A model generated the notes under the pieces. It searched no databases. It was not told where the DNA came from and saw only the letters and a list, made by a program, of their open reading frames with translations. From Candidatus Roizmanbacteria bacterium (GTDB lineage Bacteria; Patescibacteriota; Microgenomatia; UBA1406; GWC2-37-13): DNA of 33,944 bases. Location: assembly GCA_026395475.1 (NCBI GenBank), contig JAPLYQ010000142.1, forward strand, positions 1 to 33,944. Direction: 5' to 3'. Of the stretch, positions 22,414-33,715 are shown one piece after another; the first letter of the stretch is position 1, and the number at the start of each line of letters is the position of its first letter. The position numbers and the translations under genes are program-made.

Positions 22414-23007
22414 ATGGCCCCTAATTTACATACACAAGGAAATAGGTTAAACCCAGACTCTTATGTGGAGTTACTTATTTTAGATGCAAGTATGCTTAAC
22501 AGTAAAATGCCTTCTGGTACAGACTATAATACATTTAACCAAAACTCAGACAATAAATACTATCTAACAAATTCACCTCCCGAGAATGGAAGCAGCGGTA
22601 TTATGTTTAATGGTAAACTATACTTGTCCTTTCCTTACGAATTAGGCAATATCGACACCCACGGAGATGGAACTGCAAATAGTAAACCTACTCTAAGTGT
22701 AAGTAATACTAATCAATTCTTTTTAGCCGCTGTAATAAGCTTAGGAGACCTTGTAGGAGTTCAAGTTACAAGAATACGTACCTTTTACACTTATTGTGAT
22801 AATGGAGATACTCCTGACACTACACAAATATATCCCCTTGAAACTTGGGTAATAACACGCAAAGAAGCTCAAACTAAAAGTGCAATTCAATGGACTTTAA
22901 GTTCTTTCTTAGACCGTCCAGGACTTAAGCTTCCACGCTTACAAATATTTACAGATTCAGTTGCAGGTCATGTAGGATTCCCAGGCGTAAGTAGGATTTT
23001 GATGTGA
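22414..23007 (+). CDS. Minor tail protein, lambda gpL-like
   Basis: 197 aa between gpM/fiber and gpK; position and SD CGGGAG. Confidence 0.6.
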   Translation: MAPNLHTQGNRLNPDSYVELLILDASMLNSKMPSGTDYNTFNQNSDNKYYLTNSPPENGSSGIMFNGKLYLSFPYELGNIDTHGDGTANSKPTLSVSNTNQFFLAAVISLGDLVGVQVTRIRTFYTYCDNGDTPDTTQIYPLETWVITRKEAQTKSAIQWTLSSFLDRPGLKLPRLQIFTDSVAGHVGFPGVSRILM

Positions 23008-23726
23008 TAAAAAATATTGACTTTTTTCAGCAGCATGTGCTACAATGTTACCCACAAGAAGCAGTTTGTACTGTAAAAAATGGTATAGCTGTTGCCCGAG
23101 AGAATATACATCCAGACCCAGTTAACAACTTTGCACTAAGTAAAGAGGTTAGCTTAGAGGTGCAAATTAACAGGGAAAGTATATTACATTCACACACATT
23201 TATACCGAGAACAACTGAAGATGCTAGAGTTCCTTCTTATGAAGATATGGTTGGCAGAAAAAGTACCAATATACCTTGGGGAATTGTCCATTGTGATGGT
23301 ACGAATGTTTCTGATATACTTTGTTTTGGTCACATTAACAATGAACCATTGCTAGGTAGATATTATTTACATAATGTCTTTGACTGTTTTACACTTGCAA
23401 GGGATTTTCTTTATAAGGAATATAACTACGATGTAGGGCTACATCCTAGACCCTCTAACTGGGTAGAATGGAATCCGTATTATATAGAACAAACTTGGGA
23501 TACCTTGCCTTTTTATTCAATTCTAGTTAATCAGTTACAATATGGGGATATCTTATTATTCAATATTGGGAGTAATATAGTTAACCATATTGGGATTTAC
23601 ACAGAAGATAATAAATTCATACACCATTTACATCAAAGATTAAGTTGTGAAGACAATCTTAGTAAATGGAATAAGCAATTTAAACGTGCTATTAGGTATA
23701 AACATGGAAACACAGTGTACAGTTAG
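23004..23726 (+). CDS. Tail tip assembly protein gpK-like (JAB/Mov34 N-terminus, NlpC/P60 C-terminus)
   Basis: 240 aa; LHSHTFIPRTTEDARVPSYEDM (JAMM-like), DCFTLARDF Cys motif, NHIGIY His motif. Confidence 0.82.
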   Translation: MIKNIDFFQQHVLQCYPQEAVCTVKNGIAVARENIHPDPVNNFALSKEVSLEVQINRESILHSHTFIPRTTEDARVPSYEDMVGRKSTNIPWGIVHCDGTNVSDILCFGHINNEPLLGRYYLHNVFDCFTLARDFLYKEYNYDVGLHPRPSNWVEWNPYYIEQTWDTLPFYSILVNQLQYGDILLFNIGSNIVNHIGIYTEDNKFIHHLHQRLSCEDNLSKWNKQFKRAIRYKHGNTVYS

Positions 23727-24426
23727 ATTATATGGGGAATTAGCTGAACAGTTCGGGGATAAAGAACATACTATGCTTGCAAAAGATATGGTAGATGTTG
23801 TGCGTGGACTTATATCTAACTTTGGAGTTCAATTCAAACATGTATTTGCTAATGGAGTTTATCAAATAGTTCTAGGAGAGAAACACGAAGATTACGTAAC
23901 TGAAAAAGATAAACTTCTTTCTGAAAAGTTAATACAATTCCCAATTAAAGAACAATATGTACATATTTTTCCTGCGGTGCAAGGAGCTGGAGGTGGTGGA
24001 AACCAAATCCTCTTTGGTTTTGCCTTAGTAGCACTTGCGTTTGTAACTGCTGGAGCAAGTTTAGCTGTTGAAGGTGCTTTTGTTACAGCTACTTTAGCTG
24101 ATGCTGGTTCTATGGCAGTAGCTACATTTGAAGTTATGTCAAGTTCTACTGTACTATCTTCTTTAGCTATAGCAGGAGCCTTATCTATGGTTGGAGGAAT
24201 TATGTCCTTATTTGTTCCTGTTCCTAAGATGAATTATAGTGTGGCACAAAGACAAAGTTTTATCTTCGGGGGCCCCGTTAACAACACACACCAAGGTGGA
24301 GCAGTTCCAATTATCTATGGGGAGTGTATGACAGGAAGTACAGTTATCTCTGCAAGTATTCAAACAGCCAATGTAAATTGGAACATGTTAACTTATGAAC
24401 AGGTAATGTCTGGTGTCCAATATTAA
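23704..24426 (+). CDS. Tail assembly protein gpI-like
   Basis: ORF track start 23647 lies deep in gpK; ATG 23704 (METQCTVRLYGELAEQFGDKEHTM) gives the usual gpI start; C-terminal PIIYGECMTGSTVISASIQTA. Confidence 0.75.
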   Translation: METQCTVRLYGELAEQFGDKEHTMLAKDMVDVVRGLISNFGVQFKHVFANGVYQIVLGEKHEDYVTEKDKLLSEKLIQFPIKEQYVHIFPAVQGAGGGGNQILFGFALVALAFVTAGASLAVEGAFVTATLADAGSMAVATFEVMSSSTVLSSLAIAGALSMVGGIMSLFVPVPKMNYSVAQRQSFIFGGPVNNTHQGGAVPIIYGECMTGSTVISASIQTANVNWNMLTYEQVMSGVQY

Positions 24427-27400
24427 ACGATTTACAGCAACTAATAACCCAAACAAGTATTTCTCAGAGAACTGGGACGATACAATAACTGTACAAGAGT
24501 TACCAGAACATATTCAAGGAGCTGGGTGCTTTGGTAAAGGTACACTTGTACTTACAGCACATGGGTATAAAGCAATTGACCAGCTTACACTTATGGATAA
24601 AATTCTAAGTTATGATAGAGCGGGTGTAATTGAGTTTGCTAGGATTGCACAAATACATAAGCATACTAAAAAAGAGTTTAGTGATGATTTATACTTTATA
24701 AGTCGCAACACTGGGGTTATTTGGCCTAAAGGTATAACAGGGAATCATGCAGTCTATGATAAAGTTACAAATAACCATAAGCCAATTAGGGATTTTGCAG
24801 TTGGGGACGTTCTTGTCGATAATTTTAACAATGAAATTCCTATAACTGAAATAACTATTGTTCCTTATGAAGAATTAGCAGAAGATTTTTGTGTTTATAA
24901 CTTAACAGTTGGTTTAGCACATACCTATATTTGTGGCAATCCTAAAGCATGGATACGGGTACACAATGGAGGCCCAGGTAAAAGTGGAGTTGTTCCGCAA
25001 GGAGTTGAAGCTCCTAACACACTTCAAAGTAGTTCTGTAGCTTACGTGCTTGACCTTATATCGCATGGCCCTATAGTTGGTATTGCGGGAGGTACAGATA
25101 TACAAAAAGGCATTTATTTCAATAATACTCCTCTTAAAAGTCCTCAGGGACAATCTAATTTCACAGGCTACTTCCTCGAAAGCGGGGTATATACACCAGT
25201 TACACCTCATATTGCAGCAACTACAGGGACTCCAGACCAACCAGTTTTATCTGGCTTTTCAGATGTTGAAACTACAGTTTATGCAGAAAATCGTGTAATT
25301 AGTTACAGTTCTCCAGTTATAGTTACTATTCCAGATACAGGTAAACAAGCTGTCAGAATTACACTTAATTTTGCTAATGGTCTTTGGAGTCAGGACTTTA
25401 AAACAGGGGACATTAATGGAGCTTCTGTTAATTTTACTATATACACAAAATCTGCTACAAGTTCTATATGGACTCCCGCAGCTACAGGGCCATTAAAGGG
25501 TAAAACAACTTCTGCCTATATGGTGGATTACCTTGTATCGGCTCCTAATGAATGTTTAGCACAACCTAACTTAGGATGGGCTATTAAAATAGTACGTCAC
25601 GACTTAGACGATGAAATTGGTTCTCACACAAGATCAACTACAGCTTTTTATCTATTTAGCGTAGTTGAAATAGCTTATTTAACTGAAACTTATCCTAATA
25701 TGGCTGTAGTAGGGCTACAAGTACCGGCTATTGCTGTTAATAATAGTATACCTACCCGAGGTTATCTTGTTACAGGTTTAATAGTACAAGTTCCATCTAA
25801 CTATGATACAGTTCAGCGCTTATACAATGGAAGCAGAAGTATTGCTAGTTTTGGTATTGATGGGAGTACACATACTTATGATGGCGGTATTAATACTGGC
25901 ACTACGCAAGGTTACTGGGACAAGAGTTTTAAGTGGGCGTGGACAGATAACCCTGCATGGATATTATACAATCTTGTAACTAACAATGAGTATGGTCTTG
26001 GAGATTACCTAGGGGTAACTGTAGATGTGGATGTTTGGTCTTTCTATGAAGCTTCTTTGTTTAATGATTGTACTTCTTGGAGCCCAGTTACACAACAATA
26101 TAGTAAGAAATTAATAGCTAATGGAAGTTCAAGTTCTTTAGCTGTCACTAGTATAGGTGTATACGGAACATCTACTGCTCCAGTAACAACGGCTTATGTT
26201 GTAGTACCAGGACACTCTATTAACGTAGGAGATAATATTACTACGTCTGGGGTTACAGGTACATACGCTTCGTTACTAAATGGAACTTTTGGTGTAGCTA
26301 GTGTTATAGATAGAAACAATATAACTATTAATATTCCAAGCACAACAGTTACAACAACAGTAACAAACAGCGGAATTACCTTAATAGATAACTCAACGGC
26401 TGGTTTTGAGCATAGATTTATCTTCAACATGCCAATAACTGCACAACAAGATGCGTGGCAGTTACTTCAAGCTATTGCTGGTAGTATGTGGGGTATTTTA
26501 ACAACTGTAAATGGCAAGATAACCCTATTACAAGATAGACCTAAAACAGTTTCTCGTATATTTAATACTAGCAATGTGATAAATGGATTATTCACCTACT
26601 CGGGTACGGAAATAACTACGCGTACAACTGCAATTAATGTAACTTTTAATGATAAGAATAACTTATATCAACCAAAAACTATAAGTGAATGGGACAATAC
26701 TAATGTTGCTTTATACGGGTATATTCCTAACGATATAGTTGCAGTTGGATGTGTAGATGAAAGTCAAGCACGTAGACAAGCCAAATTTGCACTTAATACT
26801 GCCCTTTACCAACCTGAAATATGTGTATTTGGTCTTGGACTTAATATTATTGACCTAAGTATTGGTGATCGTATAGGTACGCAAGATAACTTTAAAGTAC
26901 GTCCTGCCTCACAATTCATAAGTGGTCGTGTTGTAAGTGCTTCAGGCATAGGTACAAATACAGTTACTTTCTCTTTAGATCGGACAATTACCTTACTTAA
27001 AGGAACTTATGCATTTGGTGTAGCTGCTCCTGATGGTTACGGTGTATTACAACCCGATGGAAGCACTGCTATAGAATCCTACATCTTTAATGGAACTATA
27101 ACAACGCCTACTTCCTCAACTGTAAGTAGTGATACCTCTGTTGTAATTGTACATTTTGATTCTCCATTACCTACATGTTCAACTAACTATGTTAACATTG
27201 AATTTTATTCTTACTGTGAGGCAAGCGGTGACCATATAGACTGGTGGACAGTACAATCTATAAGTGAATCAGCGAAAGGACAATATAACTTAACTTGTAT
27301 TAGCTATAACCCAGATAAATGGGGGCAGATAGAAAATGATTTGCATTTTACCCCTATACTTCCTCCAAGCGGGCTTTTACAAAACCAATTACCTAAACCA

Positions 27401-29845
27401 GGAACTATAAGTTTCTTACCAGTATTTTCAAATAATACAACTTCAGTTGCTAACTCATTATACGTATCTTGGGAATGGGACGGTACAGCTATAAAAGATC
27501 AAGTTACTTTTAACTTAAGCTGGAAAGTGGATTATGAAAACTGGGTAACGATTAAAAATATTGCGTTACCAACTTACCAGATTAAAAATGCAATTCCAGG
27601 TATCTACACAGTTGTTGTAACTGCGGTAAATATTGCAGGTATTAATTCCCCACAAGCACAGAACAGTTACAATTACTATACAACCTCAACAAATCTTAAC
27701 CCAATTACGGTTGATGCTGGAAGTTTAACTGCTACTAATGCAAATGTAAATGGAACTTCTATAACTAAACCTGCTACTATTATAGGAACAGCAATAACTG
27801 TGCAGTCTATCGTGTCAGGTTCGCTTTATGTTATTGATAGTATTGGTTCAACGGGAAATACAACTGACTTTACCGTATTAGGTGCAAGTGCAAATACAAT
27901 AGGAACTCAATTTACTGCAACAAGCACTTATTCAGGAACTACAAATGGAACTATACGTCCTGTCACAGCTAATACCTCTACATGGGGAGATTCCTTTTGT
28001 TCTGGAACTGTAGGTTATAACTCACCTATCGCAGTGCAGTTTATTCCGAACGCGGCTACTGGAGAGTTTATTGTAGGTTTTGATACTCACACTAATGCTA
28101 GAACTAAAGCTAATTTTCTACTTGGCCTTTATTGCAATGCAGGCGTGCTTTACACAATTGAAAATGGTACCGTACACCCAAGTTCAGGAAATTATGGAAC
28201 CTATACAACTTTAGATGTATTAGAAGTTGTGTATAACGGTACAAGTATTGACTTTAGAAAAAATGGAGTTTCCTTCAGGAATCTTTCTTACACATTAACA
28301 GGAGTAAATGTACTTTACTTTAAGTCTATTTATTTAACACCAGGAATAGGTTTATCTAACCTAATACTGGGTACTTATGTAACTTCTTCTGAGTCTTCAA
28401 TACTTCCACCAACTAACTTAAGAGTTACTGGAACAACCGGAACAACTTTTGCCGAAAAAGACTTACATATTTCTTGGACAGAGAACCCTGCCAATTCTAC
28501 AGCTACAATAAAATCGTTTAATACTGGTGCAGGTTTAGGTTTACCAAATACAAACCAATTGCCATTAACAAGCACTACAGGACTTGTTTCTGGAGAAACT
28601 GTACAAGGGAATGGAGTACCTTTAAACACTACAATACTAAGTATTGCGAGTGGCGTAGTTACTCTTAGTAATAATTTAACTGTACAAGCTAGCGGAGATT
28701 ACTCGTTCAGTGTTCCAGTTAGTTCCTTATATGCTTATGTATTACGTATAATGGACTCTGGTAATATTAATATCTTAAAAGAGTTTGTAGTTTTCCCTGA
28801 TACAACTAATGTCGGAGGCACATTTGTTTACACTTATGGACAAAATACAGTAGACTATACTACACCAAGTAGGAATGTAAATGTACGTGTGTATGCTCAA
28901 GATACTTTAGGAAATATAAGTTCAACATATATCTATGCTACTTTTTCAAATGCTCAAGCTGGAGGAGTTACTTCTTTTGAGATATTAACTTTATTAGACG
29001 GGGTGTCTATAAACATAACTCCTAACTCAACAGATAATGATGTAGCAGGGTTTAAAGTTTATAGAAACTTAACTTCTTCTTTCACAAAAGATAGTTCTAC
29101 AGAAATATATGATGGTACAAGTCCTAATGTTACTTTAACAACTCCAGATAATAGCAATACTTATTATTATTCAGTTGCAGAATATGACTCTTTTGATAAA
29201 ACTGGTTTAGCTTTTGCTTCTGAGCAAAGTGCAATTAGTATTGGTACAACTGCAATCCAGTGGGGCTTAAAAGATATTGTATTTACACAAAATACAAGTA
29301 CAAATGTTATTAGTTGGACATCTGGGACTATATATAAAAATGGAGATGCTTACAGTATAAGTTCTGGTACTGCTACTTGGACAACAGGCATTTTATACAT
29401 CTACTACACTGGAAGCGGAAGTACATTAAGTACCACAACTGCTACGGCTACGGCTGTGGGAATAGGAAATTACCCTCTTGCAACTTATGATAGTACAAAC
29501 CATTTACGCGGGGGAGATGGAAGTGCATTTATATCTGGTAGCCAGATACTTGCTGCTACAGTAGGTACAAGTCAATTAATTGCGGGGGCTGTAACTGCTG
29601 ATAAGATACTTGCAGGTGAAGTAACAGCAGATAAACTATACTCGGACGTATTACAATCTACAAGCTATAATGCAACAGCTAAAACAGGTTGGAAAGCTGA
29701 TAGAAGTGGAAATATAATTAGTTATGGGGCTTTAACTATTGCAAGTTCAGGTACAGGTAATGCACGTATGGAAAATAATGGGGACAGTATCAAGATATAT
29801 GATAGTGCTGGAACTATACGTATTAAAATAGGTAATTTAGCATGA
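24413..29845 (+). CDS. Tip attachment/central fiber protein gpJ-like with N-terminal Hint domain, FN3-like and inserted beta modules
   Basis: 1810 aa; VLDLISHGPIVGIAGG, SPVIVTIPDTGKQAVRITLNF, VVGLQVPAIAVNNSIPTRGYLVTGLIVQVPSNYD, WAWTDNPAWILYNLVTNNEYGLGDYLG match the lambda gpJ core; GTG start. Confidence 0.9.
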   Translation: MSNIKRFTATNNPNKYFSENWDDTITVQELPEHIQGAGCFGKGTLVLTAHGYKAIDQLTLMDKILSYDRAGVIEFARIAQIHKHTKKEFSDDLYFISRNTGVIWPKGITGNHAVYDKVTNNHKPIRDFAVGDVLVDNFNNEIPITEITIVPYEELAEDFCVYNLTVGLAHTYICGNPKAWIRVHNGGPGKSGVVPQGVEAPNTLQSSSVAYVLDLISHGPIVGIAGGTDIQKGIYFNNTPLKSPQGQSNFTGYFLESGVYTPVTPHIAATTGTPDQPVLSGFSDVETTVYAENRVISYSSPVIVTIPDTGKQAVRITLNFANGLWSQDFKTGDINGASVNFTIYTKSATSSIWTPAATGPLKGKTTSAYMVDYLVSAPNECLAQPNLGWAIKIVRHDLDDEIGSHTRSTTAFYLFSVVEIAYLTETYPNMAVVGLQVPAIAVNNSIPTRGYLVTGLIVQVPSNYDTVQRLYNGSRSIASFGIDGSTHTYDGGINTGTTQGYWDKSFKWAWTDNPAWILYNLVTNNEYGLGDYLGVTVDVDVWSFYEASLFNDCTSWSPVTQQYSKKLIANGSSSSLAVTSIGVYGTSTAPVTTAYVVVPGHSINVGDNITTSGVTGTYASLLNGTFGVASVIDRNNITINIPSTTVTTTVTNSGITLIDNSTAGFEHRFIFNMPITAQQDAWQLLQAIAGSMWGILTTVNGKITLLQDRPKTVSRIFNTSNVINGLFTYSGTEITTRTTAINVTFNDKNNLYQPKTISEWDNTNVALYGYIPNDIVAVGCVDESQARRQAKFALNTALYQPEICVFGLGLNIIDLSIGDRIGTQDNFKVRPASQFISGRVVSASGIGTNTVTFSLDRTITLLKGTYAFGVAAPDGYGVLQPDGSTAIESYIFNGTITTPTSSTVSSDTSVVIVHFDSPLPTCSTNYVNIEFYSYCEASGDHIDWWTVQSISESAKGQYNLTCISYNPDKWGQIENDLHFTPILPPSGLLQNQLPKPGTISFLPVFSNNTTSVANSLYVSWEWDGTAIKDQVTFNLSWKVDYENWVTIKNIALPTYQIKNAIPGIYTVVVTAVNIAGINSPQAQNSYNYYTTSTNLNPITVDAGSLTATNANVNGTSITKPATIIGTAITVQSIVSGSLYVIDSIGSTGNTTDFTVLGASANTIGTQFTATSTYSGTTNGTIRPVTANTSTWGDSFCSGTVGYNSPIAVQFIPNAATGEFIVGFDTHTNARTKANFLLGLYCNAGVLYTIENGTVHPSSGNYGTYTTLDVLEVVYNGTSIDFRKNGVSFRNLSYTLTGVNVLYFKSIYLTPGIGLSNLILGTYVTSSESSILPPTNLRVTGTTGTTFAEKDLHISWTENPANSTATIKSFNTGAGLGLPNTNQLPLTSTTGLVSGETVQGNGVPLNTTILSIASGVVTLSNNLTVQASGDYSFSVPVSSLYAYVLRIMDSGNINILKEFVVFPDTTNVGGTFVYTYGQNTVDYTTPSRNVNVRVYAQDTLGNISSTYIYATFSNAQAGGVTSFEILTLLDGVSINITPNSTDNDVAGFKVYRNLTSSFTKDSSTEIYDGTSPNVTLTTPDNSNTYYYSVAEYDSFDKTGLAFASEQSAISIGTTAIQWGLKDIVFTQNTSTNVISWTSGTIYKNGDAYSISSGTATWTTGILYIYYTGSGSTLSTTTATATAVGIGNYPLATYDSTNHLRGGDGSAFISGSQILAATVGTSQLIAGAVTADKILAGEVTADKLYSDVLQSTSYNATAKTGWKADRSGNIISYGALTIASSGTGNARMENNGDSIKIYDSAGTIRIKIGNLA
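24527..24967 (+). other. Hint (intein/BIL-like) domain within gpJ, C39-N185
   Basis: CFGKGTLVLTAHGYKAIDQL (block A), ITGNHAVYD (block B, TxxH), VYNLTVGLAHTYICGNPKAWIRVHN|GG (blocks F/G). No endonuclease insert (147 aa). Confidence 0.82.
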
Positions 29846-32733: not shown

Positions 32734-33306
32734 ATGCTAATTACGTCTGAACAACTGCATGAAATGATACCACATTCAACAGATAAGTTGATTTTACGTT
32801 ATCTTACACCTTTAAATAACGCAATGGAACAGTTCCAAATAAATACACCATTACGTATTGCAGCTTTTATAGCTCAAGTTGCACATGAAAGTTGTAGTTT
32901 AGTGTATTCTGAGGAGATTGCAAGTGGAAGTGCTTATGAAAAACGTGGTGACTTAGGTAATTTATTGCCAGAAGCACTTGCAGTTGCTCATGCTAACCAT
33001 AGTACAACTGGAAGATTCTACAAAGGGCGCAGTTTATTGCAAATTACAGGTTATAGTAACTACTTAGCGTGTAGTAAAGGTATTGATGTTGACTGTGTAA
33101 CTAATCCTAGAATACTTTCTGAGCCTGAATATGCTGCAAAGAGTGCTGCATGGTTTTGGAACATTCATAACTTAAATATCCTTGCGGATGTTGAGATGTT
33201 CGACAAGATAACACATGTAATTAATGGAGGTTACAATGGAAAAGCTGAACGAGATACAAATTATCGTCGTTGTAAGGAAGTCTTAGGTTGTAATGCGAAG
33301 AAATAA
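32734..33306 (+). CDS. Endolysin, GH19 (chitinase class I-like) family
   Basis: 190 aa; RIAAFIAQVAHESCSLVYSEE, RFYKGRSLLQITGYSNY, AAWFWNIHNLN, ITHVINGGYNGKAER. Confidence 0.85.
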   Translation: MLITSEQLHEMIPHSTDKLILRYLTPLNNAMEQFQINTPLRIAAFIAQVAHESCSLVYSEEIASGSAYEKRGDLGNLLPEALAVAHANHSTTGRFYKGRSLLQITGYSNYLACSKGIDVDCVTNPRILSEPEYAAKSAAWFWNIHNLNILADVEMFDKITHVINGGYNGKAERDTNYRRCKEVLGCNAKK

Positions 33307-33715
33307 ACTTACCAAACCAATAGGTAAGTACAACATACTATATGATTTGTGTGAAACTGTACTTACTGAGTTTGAGGCAACAGGCAAGAAATTCCCCGTT
33401 ACTAAGTATACTCCAGCTAAAATATCGGCTGGAGTTGTTTACTTTATCAGATTTACATTTACTGATGGAACAATATTATACAAACTTGGCTACACTTCGC
33501 GTACAGTATACATAAGAATGGAAACCTTAGGTATTCCATATGGAACTAAGACACGTGTACTTGCTGCATTACCTTTTAGTTCTGTACAAACTGCGTATAA
33601 AGCTGAACAGTTACTTCATGAGAAGTTTATTAAGTACAAGTACAGCGGGAAAGGTAGACTTGCTAATGGTAACAGTGAACTTTATATTTGTGACTTGTTA
33701 CAGTTACAAGCGTAG
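33293..33715 (+). CDS. Small GIY-YIG-like (T5orf172/MUG113-type) protein
   Basis: 140 aa; GVVYFIRFTFTDGTILYKLGYTSRTVYIRMETL, KAEQLLHEKFIKYKYSGKGRLANGNSELY. Confidence 0.6.
   Translation: MRRNKLTKPIGKYNILYDLCETVLTEFEATGKKFPVTKYTPAKISAGVVYFIRFTFTDGTILYKLGYTSRTVYIRMETLGIPYGTKTRVLAALPFSSVQTAYKAEQLLHEKFIKYKYSGKGRLANGNSELYICDLLQLQA

Follow-up and report, generated by a model that had tools for sequence, protein, structure and literature searches.

Replication enzymes and secreted toxins are the usual setting in which inteins and BIL domains are discussed, and most of the described A-type BILs belong to variable proteins that are secreted or toxin-like. HINT domains occur in toxins (PMC3482391). 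In A-type BILs, which lack a nucleophile at the +1 position, an N-terminal thioester is formed, Asn cyclisation frees the C-side, and an amine can then attack the thioester; cleavage products predominate (PMC4031507). The ciliate domain BUBL1 BIL2 attaches ubiquitin-like domains to lysines in an ATP-independent reaction (PMC8616854).

The window analyzed here (positions 1-33944, 33,944 nucleotides) makes up one complete contig from a draft genome of 1.18 Mb. It carries a head and tail module of the lambda type and has no tRNA gene. The tetranucleotide correlation of the window with the host is 0.74 (six host stretches were sampled, of which two read N and four were used), compared to 0.96 within the host. 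Because of this departure, the contig is likely a mis-binned free phage. A 140-aa ORF about 3.4 kb after gpJ (33293-33715, + strand) contains a T5orf172 (GIY-YIG-like) domain (PF10544, E=3.8e-7) and is a possible free-standing nuclease. The features of the tail region are listed below, where 26/26 refers to the distinct Hint domains of the family described further on.

22414-23007, + strand: gpL-like minor tail protein
23004-23726, + strand: gpK-like protein, NlpC/P60 plus a JAMM/JAB motif, HSHT...PSYED (23187-23246)
23647-24426, + strand: gpI, tail assembly protein
24413-29845, + strand: 1810-aa ORF of gpJ, the tail tip / host specificity protein; it starts with GTG, and its first 14 bases overlap the end of gpI
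24413-24526, + strand: gpJ residues 1-38, N-terminal segment; its last residues, IQGAG, are a conserved gpJ motif
24527-24967, + strand: mini-Hint / BIL-like domain, C39-N185, 147 aa, no endonuclease
24527-24529, + strand: Cys1 (C39), codon TGC, predicted nucleophile of the N-S acyl shift, invariant in 26/26
24737-24748, + strand: block B, TGNH, with T109 and H112 invariant in 26/26
24962-24967, + strand: block G, H184-N185, predicted Asn cyclisation site (N185 codon AAT, 24965-24967)
24968-24988, + strand: GGPGKSG, Gly+1 and the residues in which the glycine-rich gpJ motif continues
25007-25030, + strand: EAPNTLQS, conserved motif of gpJ at the opening of the hub domain

Outside the Hint domain, the ORF is a lambda-type gpJ, as shown by its homology (phrog_31 central tail fiber J, E=1e-124; GpJ FNIII-A; lambda_TipJ) and by the gene order L-K-I-J. 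The Pfam model PT-HINT (PF07591) matches residues 45-185, narrowly missing its cutoff of 27.7 bits when the whole ORF is searched (26.4 bits, E=8.9e-6) and exceeding it on the first 296 residues (30.1 bits). A profile built from 19 related sequences matches the BIL domain 2lwy among solved structures (E=6.5e-22) and, from about the HN onward, solved gpJ proteins. The AlphaFold2 model has a pLDDT of ~90-97 across the Hint domain, which falls to <50 in the glycine linker behind the Hint and in parts of the gpJ N-terminal segment ahead of it. The top Foldseek matches are Tetrahymena BUBL1 BIL2 (6y75, 6tmm; E 3e-11 to 2e-10) and the Clostridium thermocellum BIL 2lwy (target TM 0.89, 1.8 Å), with many inteins next. 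The sequence-only reading had placed a complete mini-Hint domain at C39-N185 of this gpJ; since the Pfam, BIL-profile and fold matches agree and gpJ accounts for the remainder of the ORF, the domain is confirmed and is not a chance motif. The same reading had carried the feature on to position 25050, which lies about 80 bases beyond the Hint, inside gpJ.

The domain has the characters of an A-type BIL such as CthBIL4 (PDB 2lwy): a Hint fold, Cys1, a C-terminal His-Asn (block G), no Cys, Ser or Thr at +1, small size and no homing endonuclease. The proposed assignment as BIL-type rather than canonical intein thus holds, both at the +1 position, which is Gly as the sequence-only reading stated, and in the nearest solved folds. 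In contrast to described A-type BILs, the Hint-gpJ domains (129-155 aa) are found in a structural protein of phages, at a single conserved position, and mostly have Gly on both sides. The ciliate BUBL BIL2 splices without a canonical +1 nucleophile, which is likewise lacking here; however, it adjoins ubiquitin-like domains in one polyprotein, whereas the ubiquitin-like gpI is encoded by a separate gene. As with the class 1 mini-inteins of phage genes (terminase, RNR, helicase), a conserved site is restored on removal and horizontal exchange is apparent, but the +1 nucleophile is missing, the host is a tail hub protein, and the insertion falls in a glycine linker instead of an active site. PT-HINT of polymorphic toxins is the nearest Pfam model, although gpJ hub domains, not a toxin, lie C-terminal to the Hint.

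The insertion point is the same in all 26 distinct Hint-gpJ proteins, within a glycine motif I-x-G-[AS]-G-G(G) that is unbroken in gpJ proteins without a Hint (starts such as MSQLIQIEGAGGGGSKAPRQPVESPDSLRS and MEDLRIQGSGGGSKPEKAHTPVEAPNTLQS). In the window, the motif is split into ...ELPEHIQGAG, the Hint domain (C39...N185) and GGPGKSGVVPQGVEAPNTLQS, and excision of C39-N185 in silico restores it as IQGAG|GGPGKSG. No Hint is present at 93 of the 121 distinct gpJ junctions sampled, most of which show an unbroken I.G[AS]GGG, GAKGG or GKGGG. Intact empty sites are also found in the nearest Hint-less clade (L226, L229, L199 and L205), which is nested beside the window's own group. The cassette thus shows the precise insertion at a conserved host site, with empty sites in homologs, of a class 1 intein. 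The 38 residues before the Hint had been regarded as an extra leader peptide. Because removal of the Hint restores the conserved motif, they are better read as gpJ's own N-terminus, ending in IQGAG; the companion proposal, that gpJ resumes straight after the HN, agrees with GGPGKSG as the continuation of the motif. In another Hint-gpJ (L149:5168-6061), VKGSKG occurs twice, once ahead of the Hint and once about 10 residues past the HN (HN|QGTGARHPRVKGSKGDDKGGGG), which looks like a duplication of the junction.

Hint-gpJ fusions were found in several divergent phage lineages by DNA-pattern scans of IMG/VR, a first set of which required HNGG followed by a gpJ motif, while a second used gpJ or alignment peptides and did not require HNGG. 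At least 30 contigs, near-duplicates included, carry both Hint and gpJ among the best 80 of the 211 that passed one scan. At a 90% identity threshold there are 26 distinct Hints, 24 of which match PF07591 (E<=0.001). The catalytic residues (Cys1, the block B T and H, and the last Asn), which had been described as intact in the window, are invariant: C39, F40, H84, T109, H112, N163 and N185 (window numbering) are the same in 26/26, against a mean conservation of 0.51 over the columns. The final Asn is preceded by His in 24 sequences and by Ser in two, and the residue before Cys1 is Gly (23/26) or Ser (3/26). The +1 residue is Gly in 22 sequences, a share inflated by the origin of most of the 26 Hints in scans demanding HNGG, Lys in three and Gln in one; Cys, Ser and Thr are found in none. 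Since the first scans had demanded HNGG, a reverse scan was run for HN[C/S/T]G before an EAP run; its four matches, within the scope of EAP-type gpJ, include none with a Hint or gpJ. A +1 Cys, Ser or Thr is also absent from the Hint-gpJ sequences of the HNGG-free scans (L012, L146-149, L160, L220 and L221), so that its absence from the family rests on about eight such sequences together with the dedicated EAP-type scan. A canonical class 1 intein is rejected on these grounds: the +1 residue is Gly in the window and not Cys, Ser or Thr in any of the 26 distinct Hints.

On a gpJ tree of 119 rows, from whose alignment the Hint was left out, Hint presence requires seven changes, of which at least three are forced by well-supported branches. 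Most dN/dS values for the Hint fall within 0.08-0.16, near those of the gpJ sequence, and the domain is under purifying selection. Two near-identical gpJ genes (L121 and L115) are mostly 93-100% identical in flanking windows and 63-80% over most of the Hint, whereas L121 and L116/L120 are 85-100% identical in the Hint and mostly 58-83% outside. The simplest reading of these sequences is an exchange of the Hint cassette at its own borders, although the L121 pattern could be an assembly chimera of a metagenome-assembled contig. Movement of the cassette between phages by recombination at the DNA level is the best reading.

We consider it probable, from the intact catalytic residues and the insertion site, that this A-type-BIL-like cassette removes itself from gpJ. 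All residues for the thioester, Asn cyclisation and amine-attack steps of A-type BILs are present. C39 would form a thioester with the preceding Gly, and cyclisation of N185 would cut the chain between N185 and G186. The gpJ fragment would then expose an unhindered Gly amine, which could attack the thioester and rejoin IQGAG to GGPGKSG, with no +1 side-chain nucleophile; Gly at both junctions should be favorable for such aminolysis. Alternatively, the thioester would be hydrolyzed, leaving a gpJ that starts at GG. Either way, the mature gpJ would lack the Hint. A cleaved gpJ would be like the natural J proteins with the start M-G-K-G-G-G (lambda type), and a ligated one like those with M..I.GSGGGG, a start of many Hint-less relatives; since both kinds exist, the sequence fits cleavage and splicing alike. 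Given self-removal, there is a slight lean to cleavage, which would dominate with about an even chance; substantial ligation is a little less expected, and some other outcome is unlikely. The activity, its products and any role in the timing of tail assembly are what we infer from sequence, and tail-tip proteins in nature may be self-trimmed or self-spliced before the tail is built.

The two ways of self-removal can be weighed separately as sub-cases. The first is a maturation by cleavage only, in which the Hint would cut itself off, the N-terminal segment would be discarded and a lambda-type gpJ would start from the glycines, possibly as a timing step in assembly. This is a serious possibility, somewhat short of even. 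The +1 residue is not a nucleophile, as in BILs in which cleavage products prevail (PMC4031507), and many natural gpJ proteins begin at the same point (MGKGGG..., MGGKSGGG...). However, the segment before the Hint keeps I.G[AS]GGG and, in the window phage's clade, a motif like [KR]YYxEDYxDT of related Hint-gpJ proteins, which NKYFSENWDDT (24452-24484, within gpJ residues 1-38) resembles. A throw-away sequence should drift, and this conservation therefore speaks against discard, unless the segment is needed as an N-extein or free peptide.

The second is true splicing by Gly aminolysis, which would restore the ancestral gpJ N-terminus and make the cassette a mobile mini-intein, neutral to its host protein. 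It is plausible, although we hold it to be somewhat unlikely. Excision gives back the empty-site sequence, the residues at -1 (Gly in 23, Ser in three) and +1 (mostly Gly) would be the least hindered partners, and the cassette is apparently swapped between phages, as expected of a selfish or mobile element. Yet the cassette (129-155 aa) has no endonuclease, the +1 residue has apparently never turned into Cys, Ser or Thr, which would splice better, and long-term conservation without homing suggests a use.

The genes next to gpJ bear on a further set of proposals. The gpI family is ubiquitin-like, and it has been proposed that the JAMM domain of gpK cuts gpI after the C-terminal glycine of the ubiquitin-like domain (PMC1779556). 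The window's gpI contains a QGAGGGG motif (23980-24000) that resembles the gpJ insertion site, a likeness that should be taken as resemblance only. A local [VI]xG[AS]GGG is thus common to gpI, after the ubiquitin-like domain, and the gpJ Hint site (24512-24526 plus 24968-24976), and is shared in many other Hint-gpJ loci; it could be a common gpK recognition or cleavage site. A JAMM motif lies upstream in most Hint-gpJ loci with enough flank. In some (L147, L160, L167, L173, L120 and L109) it is in a small stand-alone ORF of 123-131 aa, not in a JAMM-NlpC fusion, and two of these loci (L160 and L167) seemingly have two gpI-like genes in tandem. It is conceivable, although quite unlikely, that Gly-to-Gly ligation or activated-peptide transfer is naturally tuned in these proteins, such that a Gly-flanked BIL splices efficiently and gpI and gpK help to time the joining of gpJ to the tail tip.

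An inactive leftover or a purely structural domain, which would stay on mature gpJ and decorate the tail tip at the N-terminus, is improbable. The N-termini of gpJ proteins do tolerate added domains, and phage Jersey gp32 has a conserved extra N-terminal domain (PMC13243795), but the invariant residues of the Hint are the catalytic ones, and the exact splice-like site recurs. Most doubtful of all is a transfer of activated peptide as in the ciliate BUBL proteins, in which the Hint thioester would attach the N-terminal segment to another tail amine (e.g. Lys) beside gpI and gpK: BUBL1 BIL2 is the best fold match, the gpI glycine motif and the JAMM motifs are as described above, and +1 is Lys in 3/26, but the gpJ segment is short and not ubiquitin-like, fold rank by itself is weak evidence, and the gpI/JAMM neighborhood is unspecific because it is also standard in Hint-less lambda-type phages (PMC1779556).

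Such fusions are numerous in metagenomic phages. Among 50,697 records of cultured phages, tblastn with five Hint-containing gpJ N-termini and the window's Hint alone as queries found no Hint and gpJ within one record at the sensitivity used; one of the queries (L132) matched 1491 records, none covering 80% of it. A scan of prokaryote genome contigs gave four gpJ loci, none matched across the whole Hint, and in 57 genomes (the window's own and its relatives) six matches lie in genomes other than that of the window, covering the Hint part of the profile and not gpJ. No description of a Hint in gpJ or the tail tip was found in the literature; in the phage studies consulted, the Hint domains or inteins are those of terminase, RNR or helicase. 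The sequence-only reading had called for a search of gpJ homologs for Hints at the same position, which are present, and had tied novelty to whether such fusions were already catalogued: they do exist in number, while a published description was not found. The best match in a viral fold library, an uncharacterized 'Putative gp62' of an uncultured virus, may be a Hint-gpJ already in the databases without remark. BIL domains themselves are known; what is new is a BIL-like domain at a fixed, glycine-flanked site of a virion hub protein.

Several phage lineages thus have a small domain of a self-processing type at a single position in a central virion protein, with its catalytic residues invariant. 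If active, it would represent autoprocessing of a tail hub protein and provide a natural series of Gly-flanked BILs for the study of nucleophile-free splicing, and the gpJ N-termini predicted from the genomes of these phages would be wrong. It also touches the old question of what part the ubiquitin-like gpI, the JAMM protein gpK paired with it and the G[AS]GG motif common to gpI and gpJ play in tail assembly.

Hint domains were also observed in other proteins. In a related small-genome bacterium (L251, G050:C3:165712-166173), a BIL-like one lies in a 2184-aa open frame with the glycine-rich flanks GAKGGSGG|C...VHN|QKGGG, and the sequence after it gives the impression of alpha-2-macroglobulin. 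Two ORFs of ~195 aa in relatives of the window's genome (L253 and L252) end soon past the Hint (HNWK and HNAAIDSK, respectively), which puts these Hint domains near the terminus of small proteins.
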